From: Candidatus Accumulibacter sp. ACC003
GTDB lineage: Bacteria > Pseudomonadota > Gammaproteobacteria > Burkholderiales > Rhodocyclaceae
DNA length: 64,000 bases
Assembly (NCBI RefSeq): GCF_907163085.1
Contig: NZ_CAJQTX010000009.1
Span: forward strand, 372,001-436,000
Direction: 5' to 3'
Every line of letters starts with the position of its first letter. The stretch's first letter is position 1. The notes beneath the pieces were generated by a model. The model saw nothing but the letters and a program-made list of their open reading frames with translations. It searched no databases and was not told where the DNA came from. A program made the position numbers and the translations under genes. Of the stretch, positions 1-9,193 are shown in pieces.

Positions 1-728
1 AGCAGGCCGGTACCGGGCATGCACGTCGGGTGATACTGAACGAATTCCATATCGCGCAGCGGCACCCCGTGGCGGTAGGCCAGGGCCATGCCGTCGCCGG
101 TGACGACGCCGCCATTGGTGTTCTCGCGGAAGACCCTGCCAGCGCCGCCGGTGGCGATGACCACCGACCGGCCTTCGACGAAGGTAAACTCGCCCGAGCC
201 GATCTCGATCGCGACGACACCCTGCACGCGACCATTCGCAACGACCAGGTCGACACAGAAATGCTCGTCGAAACGCTTGATCGACGGATACTTGATCGAC
301 GTCTGGAAGAGCGTATGCAGCATGTGGAAACCGGTCTTGTCGGCCGCGAACCAGGTGCGCTCGATCTTCATGCCGCCGAAAGCTCGGACGTTGACGTGCC
401 CGTCAGGGGTACGACTCCACGGGCATCCCCAGTGCTCGAGCTGGGTCAGCTCTTCGTTGCAGTGCGCGACGAAGTACTCGACCACATCCTGCTCGCACAA
501 CCAGTCGCCACCGCCGACGGTGTCGTTGAAATGGTATTCGAGGCTATCGGTCGGCAGCTTCACGCCCGCCGAACCGCCTTCGGCGGCGACGGTGTGGCTG
601 CGCATCGGATAGACCTTGGAAACCAGCGCGATCTTCAGCGTCGGGTCGGACTCTGCGACGGCTATCGCCGCTCGCAAACCCGCCCCACCACCGCCGACAA
701 TCACAACATCTGCTTTGAAACTCTCCAT
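1..728 (-). CDS. frdA: Fumarate reductase flavoprotein subunit, N-terminal part (runs off the window)
   Basis: This is the first 242 codons of the FAD subunit of a quinol:fumarate reductase, the membrane-associated enzyme that reduces fumarate to succinate. The start has the Rossmann FAD motif [10 protein letters not shown] near residues 12-21, then [12 protein letters not shown], which holds the histidine that carries covalent FAD. Later come [25 protein letters not shown] and a second FAD motif ATGGAGRV. The text tracks E. coli FrdA rather than SdhA, which differs in these blocks. AAAGGA lies about seven bases before the ATG. rquA lies directly upstream on the same strand, which suggests rhodoquinol as electron donor. 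A fumarate-reducing role is inferred from subfamily resemblance; a reversible Sdh/Frd cannot be excluded. The rest of the gene lies outside the window. Confidence 0.88.
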
Positions 729-776
729 GCTTGATCCTTTCTCGCGCCAGCCATCGCCAGTCGCGACTAACACGCC

Positions 777-811
777 AAAAGCCCTGGCGGAGCTTGCGCT
801 CAAGCAGGGCT
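777..811 (-). terminator. Hairpin terminator between rquA and frdA
   Basis: Read on the minus strand, a 7-bp outer stem AGCCCTG/CAGGGCT encloses an inner GAGC-GCAA-GCTC hairpin and is followed by TTTT. It lies 18 bases after the rquA stop. It could end or attenuate rquA transcription, so frdA may also have its own promoter in the remaining 48 bases. Confidence 0.5.
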
Positions 812-828
812 AGCCAATAATCTGATTC

Positions 829-1590
829 TCAGCTCGCCGATCCTTCCGTCACGTCGACAAGCTTGAGGGTCAACATTTGATACATACCGCCAAAGAAGCG
901 TTGCTTACTGAGAGTCACGAAAGAGCCATCTTGCGGCAACCAGGCAGTGACTTCCTCGCTGAGAAGGTCGTGCGCAAAAGGCTCCAGGCGGTCCAGGACC
1001 GGCTTCCAGAAGTAGAGTAAGGGGTTCAATCGACTGGGCGGCGCGTAGTCGACGATGGTCAGCGTGCCACCCGGGCGAACGACCCGCAGGGCCTCCGCCA
1101 GAGTTCGTTCACGGACTTCTTGCGGCTGTTCATGCAGCAGGAAGAACAACAAGGCCCGGTCGAAGCTGCCGTCGGCGAAAGTAAGCGCCGCCGAATCCAT
1201 GCAATGCAGCTTGATGGGCGCATCCGCCGGCAGCTTGCCGGCGACATTCTGCAGCTGGATCGGCAGGATGTCGGCGATCTCCAGCGAGCCTCCGGGGGCC
1301 ACGCAGGCGACCAGCCGCGGTGTCAGATCGCCGTAGGCACAAGCGATCTGCAGCGTGCGGCCGGGCAAATCATTGCCGTAGGCATGGAGTACCGCATTGC
1401 ACAAACGCTTGTAGTTGCCCCAGAGAATCAGGTTCACCAGCCACTGCCGCTCGAAGACGTGCACCGCCCGCGGATGGACGTAGGCCCACCAATAATGGGC
1501 TTGCAGGTAGTGCGGTACGGCCGGCACGGCAGGCACGGTTTCCTTGACGGCCACGCACGTGGCAGCCGATTGATTCAGGGGGTTTTTCAT
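829..1590 (-). CDS. rquA: Rhodoquinone biosynthesis enzyme RquA
   Basis: This 253-aa protein is related to class I SAM methyltransferases. RquA converts ubiquinone to rhodoquinone, using SAM as amino donor in the characterised enzyme. Diagnostic blocks are YWWAYVHPRAV at residues 33-43, FERQWLVNLILWGN at 46-59, an atypical motif I IACAYGDLT at 82-90 in place of GxGxG, FFLLHEQP at 149-156 and VRPGGTLTIVDY further on. These are recalled features of the RquA subfamily. frdA follows about 100 bp downstream on the same strand, and fumarate reductase is the usual client of rhodoquinone. No good Shine-Dalgarno sequence precedes the ATG, so a slightly later start is possible. A generic ubiquinone-type methyltransferase is the alternative. 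Confidence 0.83.
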   Translation of the reverse strand: MKNPLNQSAATCVAVKETVPAVPAVPHYLQAHYWWAYVHPRAVHVFERQWLVNLILWGNYKRLCNAVLHAYGNDLPGRTLQIACAYGDLTPRLVACVAPGGSLEIADILPIQLQNVAGKLPADAPIKLHCMDSAALTFADGSFDRALLFFLLHEQPQEVRERTLAEALRVVRPGGTLTIVDYAPPSRLNPLLYFWKPVLDRLEPFAHDLLSEEVTAWLPQDGSFVTLSKQRFFGGMYQMLTLKLVDVTEGSAS

Positions 1591-1788
1591 TTTGTGAGGA
1601 GGTCAATGGTTATCTTCCGCAAGGCGTACTGCGAGACCGGCGCCCGACCGAGGCGCGCGCATCCAGCTTGCGCTCCCCCCGATACGTGCCTTTCTCATGC
1701 CCTGCTCATGTACTGCTGATCGCTGGCCCGCTGCTCACGCACTCGAAAAACTCGGAAGCCGGAAGCCGTCAGGCGGTAACGTACCCGA

Positions 1789-7741: not shown

Positions 7742-7981
7742 TCAGTAGCCGCGCTGCTCCTGCTGATTCTTGCCCTTGATGTTGCCGACCGTGCCGCCAA
7801 TAACGCCACCGATCGCGGCGCCGGTCCAGCCGTTGCCGCCCGAGATGGCCGCGATGCCAGCGCCAGCGGCAGCGCCAATCGCCGCGCCACTGACCGTTCC
7901 CTGCTCACGCGGCGTCATGTTCGTGCAGCCCATCACCGACAGCGCCGCAACCGTCGCCAGAGCCAATCCGGTTCTTTTCAT
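7742..7981 (-). CDS. Glycine-zipper lipoprotein
   Basis: A 79-aa protein with a short signal peptide and lipobox LSVMGC, so lipidation at about Cys19 is expected. The rest is a glycine-zipper membrane-inserting segment (GTVSGAAIGAAAGAGIAAISGG, then GAAIGGVIGGTVG) and a Gln/Glu-rich tail. OsmB-like and Rickettsia 17-kDa-like envelope lipoproteins share this layout. The start has a reasonable purine-rich site (GAGACGAGAG). It ends before a bidirectional hairpin and follows the next gene by only 12 bp, so the two are probably cotranscribed. Confidence 0.8.
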   Translation of the reverse strand: MKRTGLALATVAALSVMGCTNMTPREQGTVSGAAIGAAAGAGIAAISGGNGWTGAAIGGVIGGTVGNIKGKNQQEQRGY

Positions 7982-7993
7982 CTCTCGTCTCCG

Positions 7994-8389
7994 TTATTTG
8001 TTTTTCTTGAGTCCTGGCACGACCATTTCGAACCAGATCGTCTCCACCACCGGCCGCTGCAAGCGATCGGGGTTGGCGGCGTACCACTTGTCCAGCGTTA
8101 CGGACGCCGCGTCCAGCGTCTGCCCTTGCATGCCCTTGGCAGCGATCAAGGAGAAATCGTCCGCGGAAGCGCGCGAAGATTCGGCCTGATACGCGCGATC
8201 GATCTGCATCGCATTCGCCAGGCCAATAAGATAGGCCTTCTTGACTTCCGGAGCAGACGTCGTCCATTGCGTGCCATCGACCAGCGGCAACTCGTCGGCG
8301 GCAACGGTACCGCCAGCAAACAGCAGCGCCAGGCACGCGGCCGACGCGGCCTTGCCAAATTTCCGAAAACACAATCGAGTAGTCATCAT
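7994..8389 (-). CDS. Small secreted protein of unknown function
   Basis: A 131-aa protein chosen to start at ATG-ATG (8389) because GGAGGGAAAG lies directly upstream; a longer reading would add 40 unlikely residues. The signal peptide runs to about residue 30 (LALLFAGGTVAAD). The mature part has VKKAYLIGLANAMQIDRAYQ and ends with a conserved-looking WYAANPDRLQRPVVETIWFEMVVPGL. The Y-L-x-G helix and C-terminal P-x-x-x-x-R-P-V resemble small periplasmic proteins whose genes often sit beside lipoproteins. No function is claimed. It is upstream of, and probably cotranscribed with, the glycine-zipper lipoprotein. Confidence 0.68.
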   Translation of the reverse strand: MMTTRLCFRKFGKAASAACLALLFAGGTVAADELPLVDGTQWTTSAPEVKKAYLIGLANAMQIDRAYQAESSRASADDFSLIAAKGMQGQTLDAASVTLDKWYAANPDRLQRPVVETIWFEMVVPGLKKNK

Positions 8390-8557: not shown

Positions 8558-9193
8558 TCAGGGTCTGGCGGCCGGCGGAGGCGCCGGCCGCCCAGGCAGG
8601 GGATCTGTGGTCGGAAGCGGCGCGGCAGCAGTGCCGGGCAGTGGTGCTGGCAGCAGCGGCAGCGTGCCGCCTGCCAGGCCCTGGCCAGGCACGACAACGA
8701 GCCCTGTCGGCGCAGCCGCGGCGCTGAAGATCCATTCCGAATAGCTCGACGCGCCTTCGAAAGCGGCATCCTCGGCGGCAAACTCGGCGACCTTGATCGG
8801 CTGCGCCTTTGACAGACTGTGAACGCCCATGATGCCACCGCCGGGGGCGGCAAGCAGCCCCCACTCGTTGCCACCGCTGATCGGATCGGCGTAGAGCTGC
8901 CGCAAATGCCGACGAACGCCGGGATAACGCGGATCCCTGAGGAGCTCGGCGAGCGTTCCCGGGTAACGGCGGTCACCCGCCGGGCTGCTGTCCAGGTAGC
9001 TGGCGATCGCCTGACGGTACGCGGCGCCGACTTCGAGCAGTCGCTGCTCGGCCGCCCGCCGCTGGACAATGCTGCCCAGCGTCAGCATGCCACTGCTCGC
9101 CAGCGCCAGGATGGCGACCAGGATGAGCAGCCCAAGGTAGGTAAAGCCGGCCTCGCTGCGGGCCATGCGGTCGCGATCGCCATGTTTCTCCAT
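8558..9193 (-). CDS. Pseudopilin with proline-rich tail
   Basis: A 211-aa prepilin-like protein. The class III leader reads SEAGFTYLGLLILVAILAL, with cleavage after the Gly and a hydrophobic helix, though the usual Glu at +5 is replaced by Gly, as in some minor pseudopilins. I chose ATG 9193, two bases after the preceding gene's stop. The middle shows pseudopilin-like QAIASYLDSSPAGDRRYPGTLAELLRDPRYP. The last 45 residues are Pro/Ala-rich low complexity. It is the last gene of the secretion operon. A missing +5 Glu is seen in GspK-like tip pseudopilins, so it may sit at the tip of the pseudopilus; this is inference. Confidence 0.75.
   Translation of the reverse strand: MEKHGDRDRMARSEAGFTYLGLLILVAILALASSGMLTLGSIVQRRAAEQRLLEVGAAYRQAIASYLDSSPAGDRRYPGTLAELLRDPRYPGVRRHLRQLYADPISGGNEWGLLAAPGGGIMGVHSLSKAQPIKVAEFAAEDAAFEGASSYSEWIFSAAAAPTGLVVVPGQGLAGGTLPLLPAPLPGTAAAPLPTTDPLPGRPAPPPAARP

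Follow-up and report, generated by a model that had tools for sequence, protein, structure and literature searches.

The quinol:fumarate reductase (QFR) of Escherichia coli is a four-subunit enzyme, and enzymes of this type, FrdABCD, are known to use menaquinol. Rhodoquinone (RQ) has a potential of -63 mV, as compared to +110 mV for ubiquinone (UQ), and is made from ubiquinone by RquA, with SAM as the amino donor and Mn2+ as the cofactor (PMC9814641). In RquA of Rhodospirillum rubrum (Rru_A3227), the aspartates D118 and D143 lie in the SAM pocket, and no RQ8 was obtained from the D118A/D143A double mutant; the reaction required oxygen in vitro, and the authors expect another oxidant in vivo (PMC9814641). 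In many bacteria rquA is found within 15 genes of respiratory complex genes, including those of complex II, for which a shared operon was suggested, and 12 of those bacteria carry a second frd/sdh operon elsewhere (Stairs et al., 2018; PMC5953543). The association of rquA with frd/sdh was therefore already published in 2018, and the pairing described here is not new as a kind.

Candidatus Accumulibacter owes its role as the driver of biological phosphorus removal to a cycle of anoxic feeding and aerobic famine, and its redox balance under anoxia is debated. In Accumulibacter and Propionivibrio, frd genes have been annotated and given a proposed role in anaerobic redox and proton-motive force, and a fumarate reductase together with a novel quinol reductase has been invoked, without a low-potential quinone (PMC4930944, PMC12604563). 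In one of these studies, fumarate reductase is proposed to sustain the proton-motive force, and frdAB transcription is reported to have been higher under low phosphate in one experiment and not significantly so in another (PMC12604563). The passages on Frd considered from both papers name no quinone as its donor and do not mention rquA, whereas at the locus described here rquA precedes frdABCD. No report of rquA or rhodoquinone in Accumulibacter was found among the open-access full texts searched; PMC13310139 mentions rhodoquinone only in its reference list, and PMC3914697 names rhodoquinone and Accumulibacter in separate contexts. The presence of rquA-frdABCD in nearly every genome of the genus provides a candidate electron donor and makes the anaerobic electron sink directly testable.

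Genes of the rquA-frdABCD locus

The window, that is, the whole stretch of 64,000 nucleotides that was analysed, corresponds to positions 372001-436000 of contig C9 of genome G000 (Candidatus Accumulibacter sp. ACC003; 5.39 Mb in 13 contigs). Positions beyond its edge are given on L007, where the position is the window position + 10000. The rquA gene occupies positions 829-1590 on the minus strand and encodes a protein of 253 residues starting with ATG. A sequence-only reading of this DNA had named an RquA-like protein with the blocks YWWAYVHPRAV, IACAYGDLT, and FFLLHEQP. This was borne out, since all three blocks are present in the product and its translation, taken without the start codon, scored 276.8 bits in a profile search with the RquA equivalog model NF038261 (cut-off 175), about 100 bits above the cut-off. 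The same model placed this methyltransferase within RquA and gave no score above the cut-off in any of 14 control genomes. A plain UbiE/MenG identity was ruled out, as the corresponding models gave at most 34.1 bits against cut-offs of at least 158.

Like the R. rubrum enzyme, the window RquA has a SAM-binding fold in which motif I is non-canonical, with a spacing of 25 residues between two aspartates (PMC9814641). These are D107 and D132, which were mapped to D118 and D143 by family score, conservation, and spacing, the R. rubrum sequence lying outside the alignment. D107 is kept in 110/110 RquA rows and D132 in 103/110, the other seven having asparagine. In a FastTree phylogeny of 112 rows, from which L105 was left out because of a frame break, the 110 RquA rows stood opposite only two non-RquA outgroup rows (L003 and L036), with a basal support of 0.848-0.952 and weak support inside. 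Because of this weak inner support and the two outgroup rows, the tree adds little beyond the profile; RquA trees were weakly supported in published work as well (PMC11707229).

The reading had also placed a FrdA-type flavoprotein gene on the same strand 100 bp after rquA, and this is indeed the arrangement, with the gap at 729-828 and the ATG of frdA at position 728 on the minus strand. The window edge cuts this gene, so that its first 242 codons lie inside (1-728) and on their own score below every cut-off given here, and the gene runs on to L007:8941. Once the locus is read past the edge, as had been suggested in order to look for frdB, frdC, and frdD, all three are found and rquA-frdABCD is complete. 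On the minus strand, frdB (ATG at 8948; L007:8948-8193) scored 421.7 bits with NF009051 (cut-off 333), frdC (GTG at 8196; L007:8196-7798) scored 100.6 with its NCBIfam model, below the cut-off of 143, and 149 with Pfam PF02300, above that of 24.2, and frdD (ATG at 7801; L007:7801-7433) scored 149.1 with NF003977 (cut-off 60). Each of these genes overlaps the end of the preceding one, and all are on the same strand as frdA.

The full FrdA has 595 residues and passed both NF006686 (1045.4 bits, cut-off 854) and TIGR01176 (951.5 bits, cut-off 932.7), while with the SdhA model TIGR01816 it reached 563.1, below 727.35. The genome's own SdhA, encoded on contig C11, showed the reverse pattern (930.7 vs. 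727.35 with the SdhA model and 507.3 vs. 932.7 with the FrdA model). Among solved structures, E. coli FrdA (1kf6) was the best match at 849 bits, as compared to 432 for the best SDH chain (6lum) and 399 for E. coli SdhA (1nek). An L-aspartate oxidase was ruled out, NadB models being below the cut-off (best TIGR00551, 366 vs. 453) and the Frd models passed. A check against aerobic SdhA had been proposed for the flavoprotein, and in a tree of 38 rows, from which the cut FrdA proteins of L090 and L122 were left out, it grouped with E. coli FrdA and away from both SdhA references: 35 rows including these two proteins were split at 100/100 from three SdhA-type rows, with a program warning about long branches. 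The latter three are E. coli SdhA, the genome's own SdhA, and the SdhA-type protein of L118, which is encoded close to a different rquA. On the other side, E. coli FrdA and 32 further rows were joined at 99/97, with L106 and L152 outside that group.

Glutamate stands at one site (HTVAAEGG) in 34/34 rows of the FRD side that cover it, L105 not being one of them, and glutamine (HTVAAQGG) in the three SdhA-type rows; we take this difference to separate FrdA from SdhA, although chain 2b76 has glutamine there. By profile cut-offs and tree, an aerobic SdhA is ruled out, and by its sequence the flavoprotein beside rquA is the quinol:fumarate reductase FrdA. The locus has the four-subunit order of E. 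coli QFR, and its FrdA lies on the same side of the tree. The E. coli enzyme has menaquinol as its partner, whereas here a gene for rhodoquinone stands in front and the genome holds no menaquinone marker among those tested.

The rquA-frd neighbourhood within and beyond the genus

RquA was above the cut-off in 26 of the 28 genomes of the genus (G000-G027), and in 26/26 of these loci frdA lies directly behind rquA on the same strand. Because the order is the same in all of them, it is not due to chance. As regards the two misses, the contig of G004 (66557 bases) ends inside frdA, and G016 is 72% complete and has neither RquA above the cut-off nor an E. coli-type FrdA; both are uninformative for these reasons, and a loss of rquA in some species is unsupported. 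From a scan of named genomes, the best 80 of 316 relatives were inspected as named loci. In the 22 that belong to the Accumulibacter group (L080-L100 and L105), frdA follows rquA in every case and frdB-D are visible in 20, the view being cut by contig ends in L090 and L095. In the locus of A. phosphatis SBR_S (L105, on contig C26 of G008), both rquA and frdA are interrupted by a frame break, which in all likelihood reflects sequencing error.

These loci differ from those described by Stairs et al. (2018; PMC5953543) in that rquA and frdA are directly adjacent and their order is kept throughout the genus; the relevant section of that paper names no genera, and Accumulibacter is absent from its main text. 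As in the bacteria of that study, a second complex II is encoded elsewhere in the window genome.

The other 58 named loci were chosen by similarity to the window RquA, with flanks of up to 8 kb and many shorter. E. coli-type frd genes stand beside rquA in 14 of them, in three arrangements: frd is downstream in the same direction in six (L101, L102, L128, L131, L136, and L149), upstream in the same direction in two (L103 and L152), and convergent with rquA in six (L106, L108, L120, L122, L129, and L139), L129 showing only frdD at a contig end. The differing arrangements indicate either several independent origins of the neighbourhood or a reshuffling during which the genes stayed together.

Across the family, 141 of 395 genomes have RquA above the cut-off. 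Among the 30 best-scoring (not randomly chosen) RquA loci from other genera of the family, no FrdA or FrdB was found within flanks of at most 1.5 kb. Among 93 genomes from the rest of the family, counting by eye gave RquA in 23, E. coli-type FrdA in 16 (14 above the cut-off and two just under), and both in seven, as compared to about four expected by chance if relatedness is ignored. None of these seven genomes has rquA and frdA side by side; the genes are far apart on one contig in three and on different contigs in four. The coupling of rquA and frd is real but not obligatory.

In G056 and G075, the flavoprotein found near RquA is a more distant one, with scores of 341 and 404 bits, respectively. 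The metagenome bin of isolate WH4.bin15 has two different rquA genes, one beside frdABCD (L103) and the other without frd in the fetched flanks (L130). Two genomes titled 'Dechloromonas sp.', L101 (CP059264.1) and L102 (JAABQV010000003.1), also contain rquA-frdABCD; their RquA is 76 and 73% identical to that of the window, respectively, their FrdA is 91% identical, and their FrdA rows share a clade with those of Accumulibacter. Misnaming, shared ancestry, or transfer may account for this pattern.

Quinone context and candidate role of the locus

The genome carries ubiU, ubiV, and ubiT in a row (551 bits against a cut-off of 440, 369.7 against 275, and 126.8 against 46.9, respectively), so that by gene content the O2-independent pathway would supply ubiquinone under anoxia. 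The 49-kDa subunit of complex I (PF00346) was found at 384.9 bits, and contig C11 bears a separate SDH operon. Its genes resemble sdhC, sdhD, sdhA, and sdhB, with a small gene and one similar to citrate synthase behind them; apart from SdhA, these names were assigned by eye. A second, weaker match to the complex I family (112 bits) lies at positions 300726-301193 of contig C5 in an open frame of 525 residues, perhaps the large subunit of a membrane hydrogenase-like enzyme. For menaquinone, the best MenD score in this genome was 76.9 against a cut-off of 244.2, which 7/14 controls pass, and MqnA/MqnD (PF02621) gave no match here and matches in 4/14 controls. Rhodoquinone is accordingly the only low-potential quinone for which a marker was found in this genome, MenD and MqnA/D being the menaquinone markers tested.

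In the survey of the genus MenD alone, and not the whole pathway, served as the menaquinone marker. It was above the cut-off in 12 of the 28 genomes, of which 11 have RquA above the cut-off and the twelfth is G004, where rquA is unreadable; G009 and G013 gave matches only to the end of MenD. The O2-independent ubiquinone pathway was reported in 73 of 84 RquA genomes and menaquinone in only five of them (PMC11707229). The window genome fits this pattern and the genus does not, RquA and MenD occurring together in 11/28 genomes, a combination that the published figures make rare. Accumulibacter phosphatis has been listed among genomes with the classical menaquinone pathway and UbiC (PMC3914697).

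The gene identities, the completeness of the locus, the conservation of its neighbourhood, and the supporting genes (ubiUVT, the complex I subunit, and SDH) were established by computation. We infer that rquA is active, that rhodoquinol is the donor of FrdABCD, and that the anaerobic feed phase is when the pathway operates. In our judgement, this locus of Candidatus Accumulibacter quite probably encodes a rhodoquinol:fumarate reductase module. Some of the ubiquinone would be converted by RquA to rhodoquinone (about -63 mV), which complex I and other dehydrogenases would reduce when oxygen and nitrate are lacking. FrdABCD, an E. coli-type membrane enzyme, would then re-oxidise rhodoquinol and reduce fumarate to succinate. 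The cell would gain a sink for its electrons under anaerobic conditions, complex I would pump protons, and succinate would become available for propionyl-CoA; the reductive route that leads from oxaloacetate to propionyl-CoA would thereby be coupled to energy conservation. Once conditions turn aerobic, ubiquinone and the separate SDH would take over. Several observations stand against such a module: rquA is not bound to E. coli-type Frd in the wider family, rquA and frd are convergent in 6 of the 14 loci that link them in other genera, MenD is above the cut-off in 12/28 genomes of the genus, a terminator-shaped hairpin lies between the two genes, no Fnr box was found upstream of rquA in this genome, and RquA depended on oxygen in vitro (PMC9814641).

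FrdABCD might also be mainly a succinate oxidase, a spare complex II, and QFR can operate in both directions. In one Accumulibacter symbiont, SDH has reportedly been lost, leaving fumarate reductase as the only enzyme for this step (PMC13310139). We nevertheless regard this explanation as very unlikely here, where a separate SDH with an SdhA above the equivalog cut-off is present, the neighbouring gene makes a quinone of lower potential, and FrdA has the HTVAAEGG glutamate as compared to the HTVAAQGG glutamine of the genome's SdhA, a difference whose discriminating value is presumed and which is qualified by 2b76. That the window protein is an RquA-like SAM enzyme devoid of RQ activity appears extremely improbable, given an equivalog score so far above its cut-off, the retention of both SAM-pocket aspartates, and a one-step reaction for which confirmation is reported from 15 species (PMC11707229), even if an rquA from Desulfobacterota yielded no RQ when expressed in E. 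coli (PMC13386864) and a family match is consequently no proof.

A third explanation accepts that RquA works and holds that rhodoquinone mainly serves other enzymes, FrdABCD being fed by ubiquinol, or by menaquinol in the species with MenD, and the neighbourhood reflecting only a shared anaerobic regulation. It would agree with the lack of an E. coli-type FrdA in 16 of the 23 genomes with RquA from the rest of the family (tally by eye) and with the six convergent loci, which are not co-transcribed. Moreover, menaquinol is the known donor of E. coli-type FrdABCD, so that in the 12/28 genomes of the genus with MenD rhodoquinol need not be the donor. This explanation is unlikely for the window genome, which has neither MenD above the cut-off nor a match to MqnA/D, and the tight same-strand order, from which none of the 26 RquA loci of the genus departs, also opposes it. 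Ubiquinol, on the potentials given above, is a poor donor to fumarate (PMC9814641).

The intergenic gap and the leader upstream of rquA

The physical pairing of the genes had been taken to make a functional unit likely. Its conservation throughout the genus and the rquA-frd pairs found elsewhere in other arrangements support this view; as for a common operon, the question is touched by two conserved hairpins in the gap of 100 bp (729-828, minus strand), one of them terminator-shaped. The hairpin H1 combines a GC-rich stem (780-811, minus strand) with four consecutive T and resembles a weak terminator. The hairpin H2 (742-766, minus strand) overlaps by two bases the ribosome-binding sequence of frdA, GAGAAAGGA. 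The gap measures 82-110 bp in 20 of the 22 named Accumulibacter loci and 151 bp in L100, and is unreadable in L105 owing to the frame break; in the 'Dechloromonas' loci it is 82 bp (L101) and 15 bp (L102).

The conserved hairpins recur in the counterparts of 729-828 across L080-L101. Of the alignments used, A2 omits L102 and L105, and A3 omits L100, L102, and L105. For H2, 83.9% of cells are paired, as compared to 32.5-50.9% with the partner columns offset by 1 to 3, and one of 500 shuffles reaches 83.9%; changes on both sides occur in 5/10 pairs, a number reached by 35/500 shuffles. The RNAalifold consensus holds both H1 and H2, with changes on both sides in 7/12 pairs and a small covariation term (-0.72). 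No Rfam match was obtained up to E 1 across L007:7000-12200, and no promoter or terminator was called in 600-2000 (shuffles gave a mean of 1.3 terminators). A dispersed element was ruled out for H2, which is present in a single copy in the genome (58.6 bits vs. 19.3 for the next place).

It is a fair guess from the sequence that the hairpins make the levels of frdABCD and rquA differ on one transcript. If oxygen matters for RquA, rhodoquinone might, speculatively, be made aerobically and spent anaerobically, which would suit feast-famine cycling. A broader picture, which we put forward tentatively and with more doubt than confidence, is that throughout the genus a dedicated pool of rhodoquinone supplies FrdABCD during the anaerobic feed. 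This pool would be formed from ubiquinone while the aerobic phase lasts or shortly afterwards, and the quinones would thus carry redox capacity from famine to feast; about four in ten species, those with MenD, would keep a menaquinone pool too, and the hairpins would set the ratio of quinone maker to reductase.

Between a tatD-type gene and rquA lies a leader of 198 bp (1591-1788, minus strand), in which no sigma-70-like promoter was called. An Fnr-type box (TTGAT-N4-ATCAA, at most two mismatches) was absent from the 260 bp upstream of rquA in 25/26 loci, including that of this genome; L101 has one Fnr-like match upstream of rquA, with one mismatch in each half. Just past the stop of the tatD-type gene, at 1765-1788 on the minus strand, the non-coding stretch TCGGGTACGTTACCGCCTGACGGC is largely kept across the Accumulibacter loci, as judged by eye in the alignment, and is a possible regulatory site.
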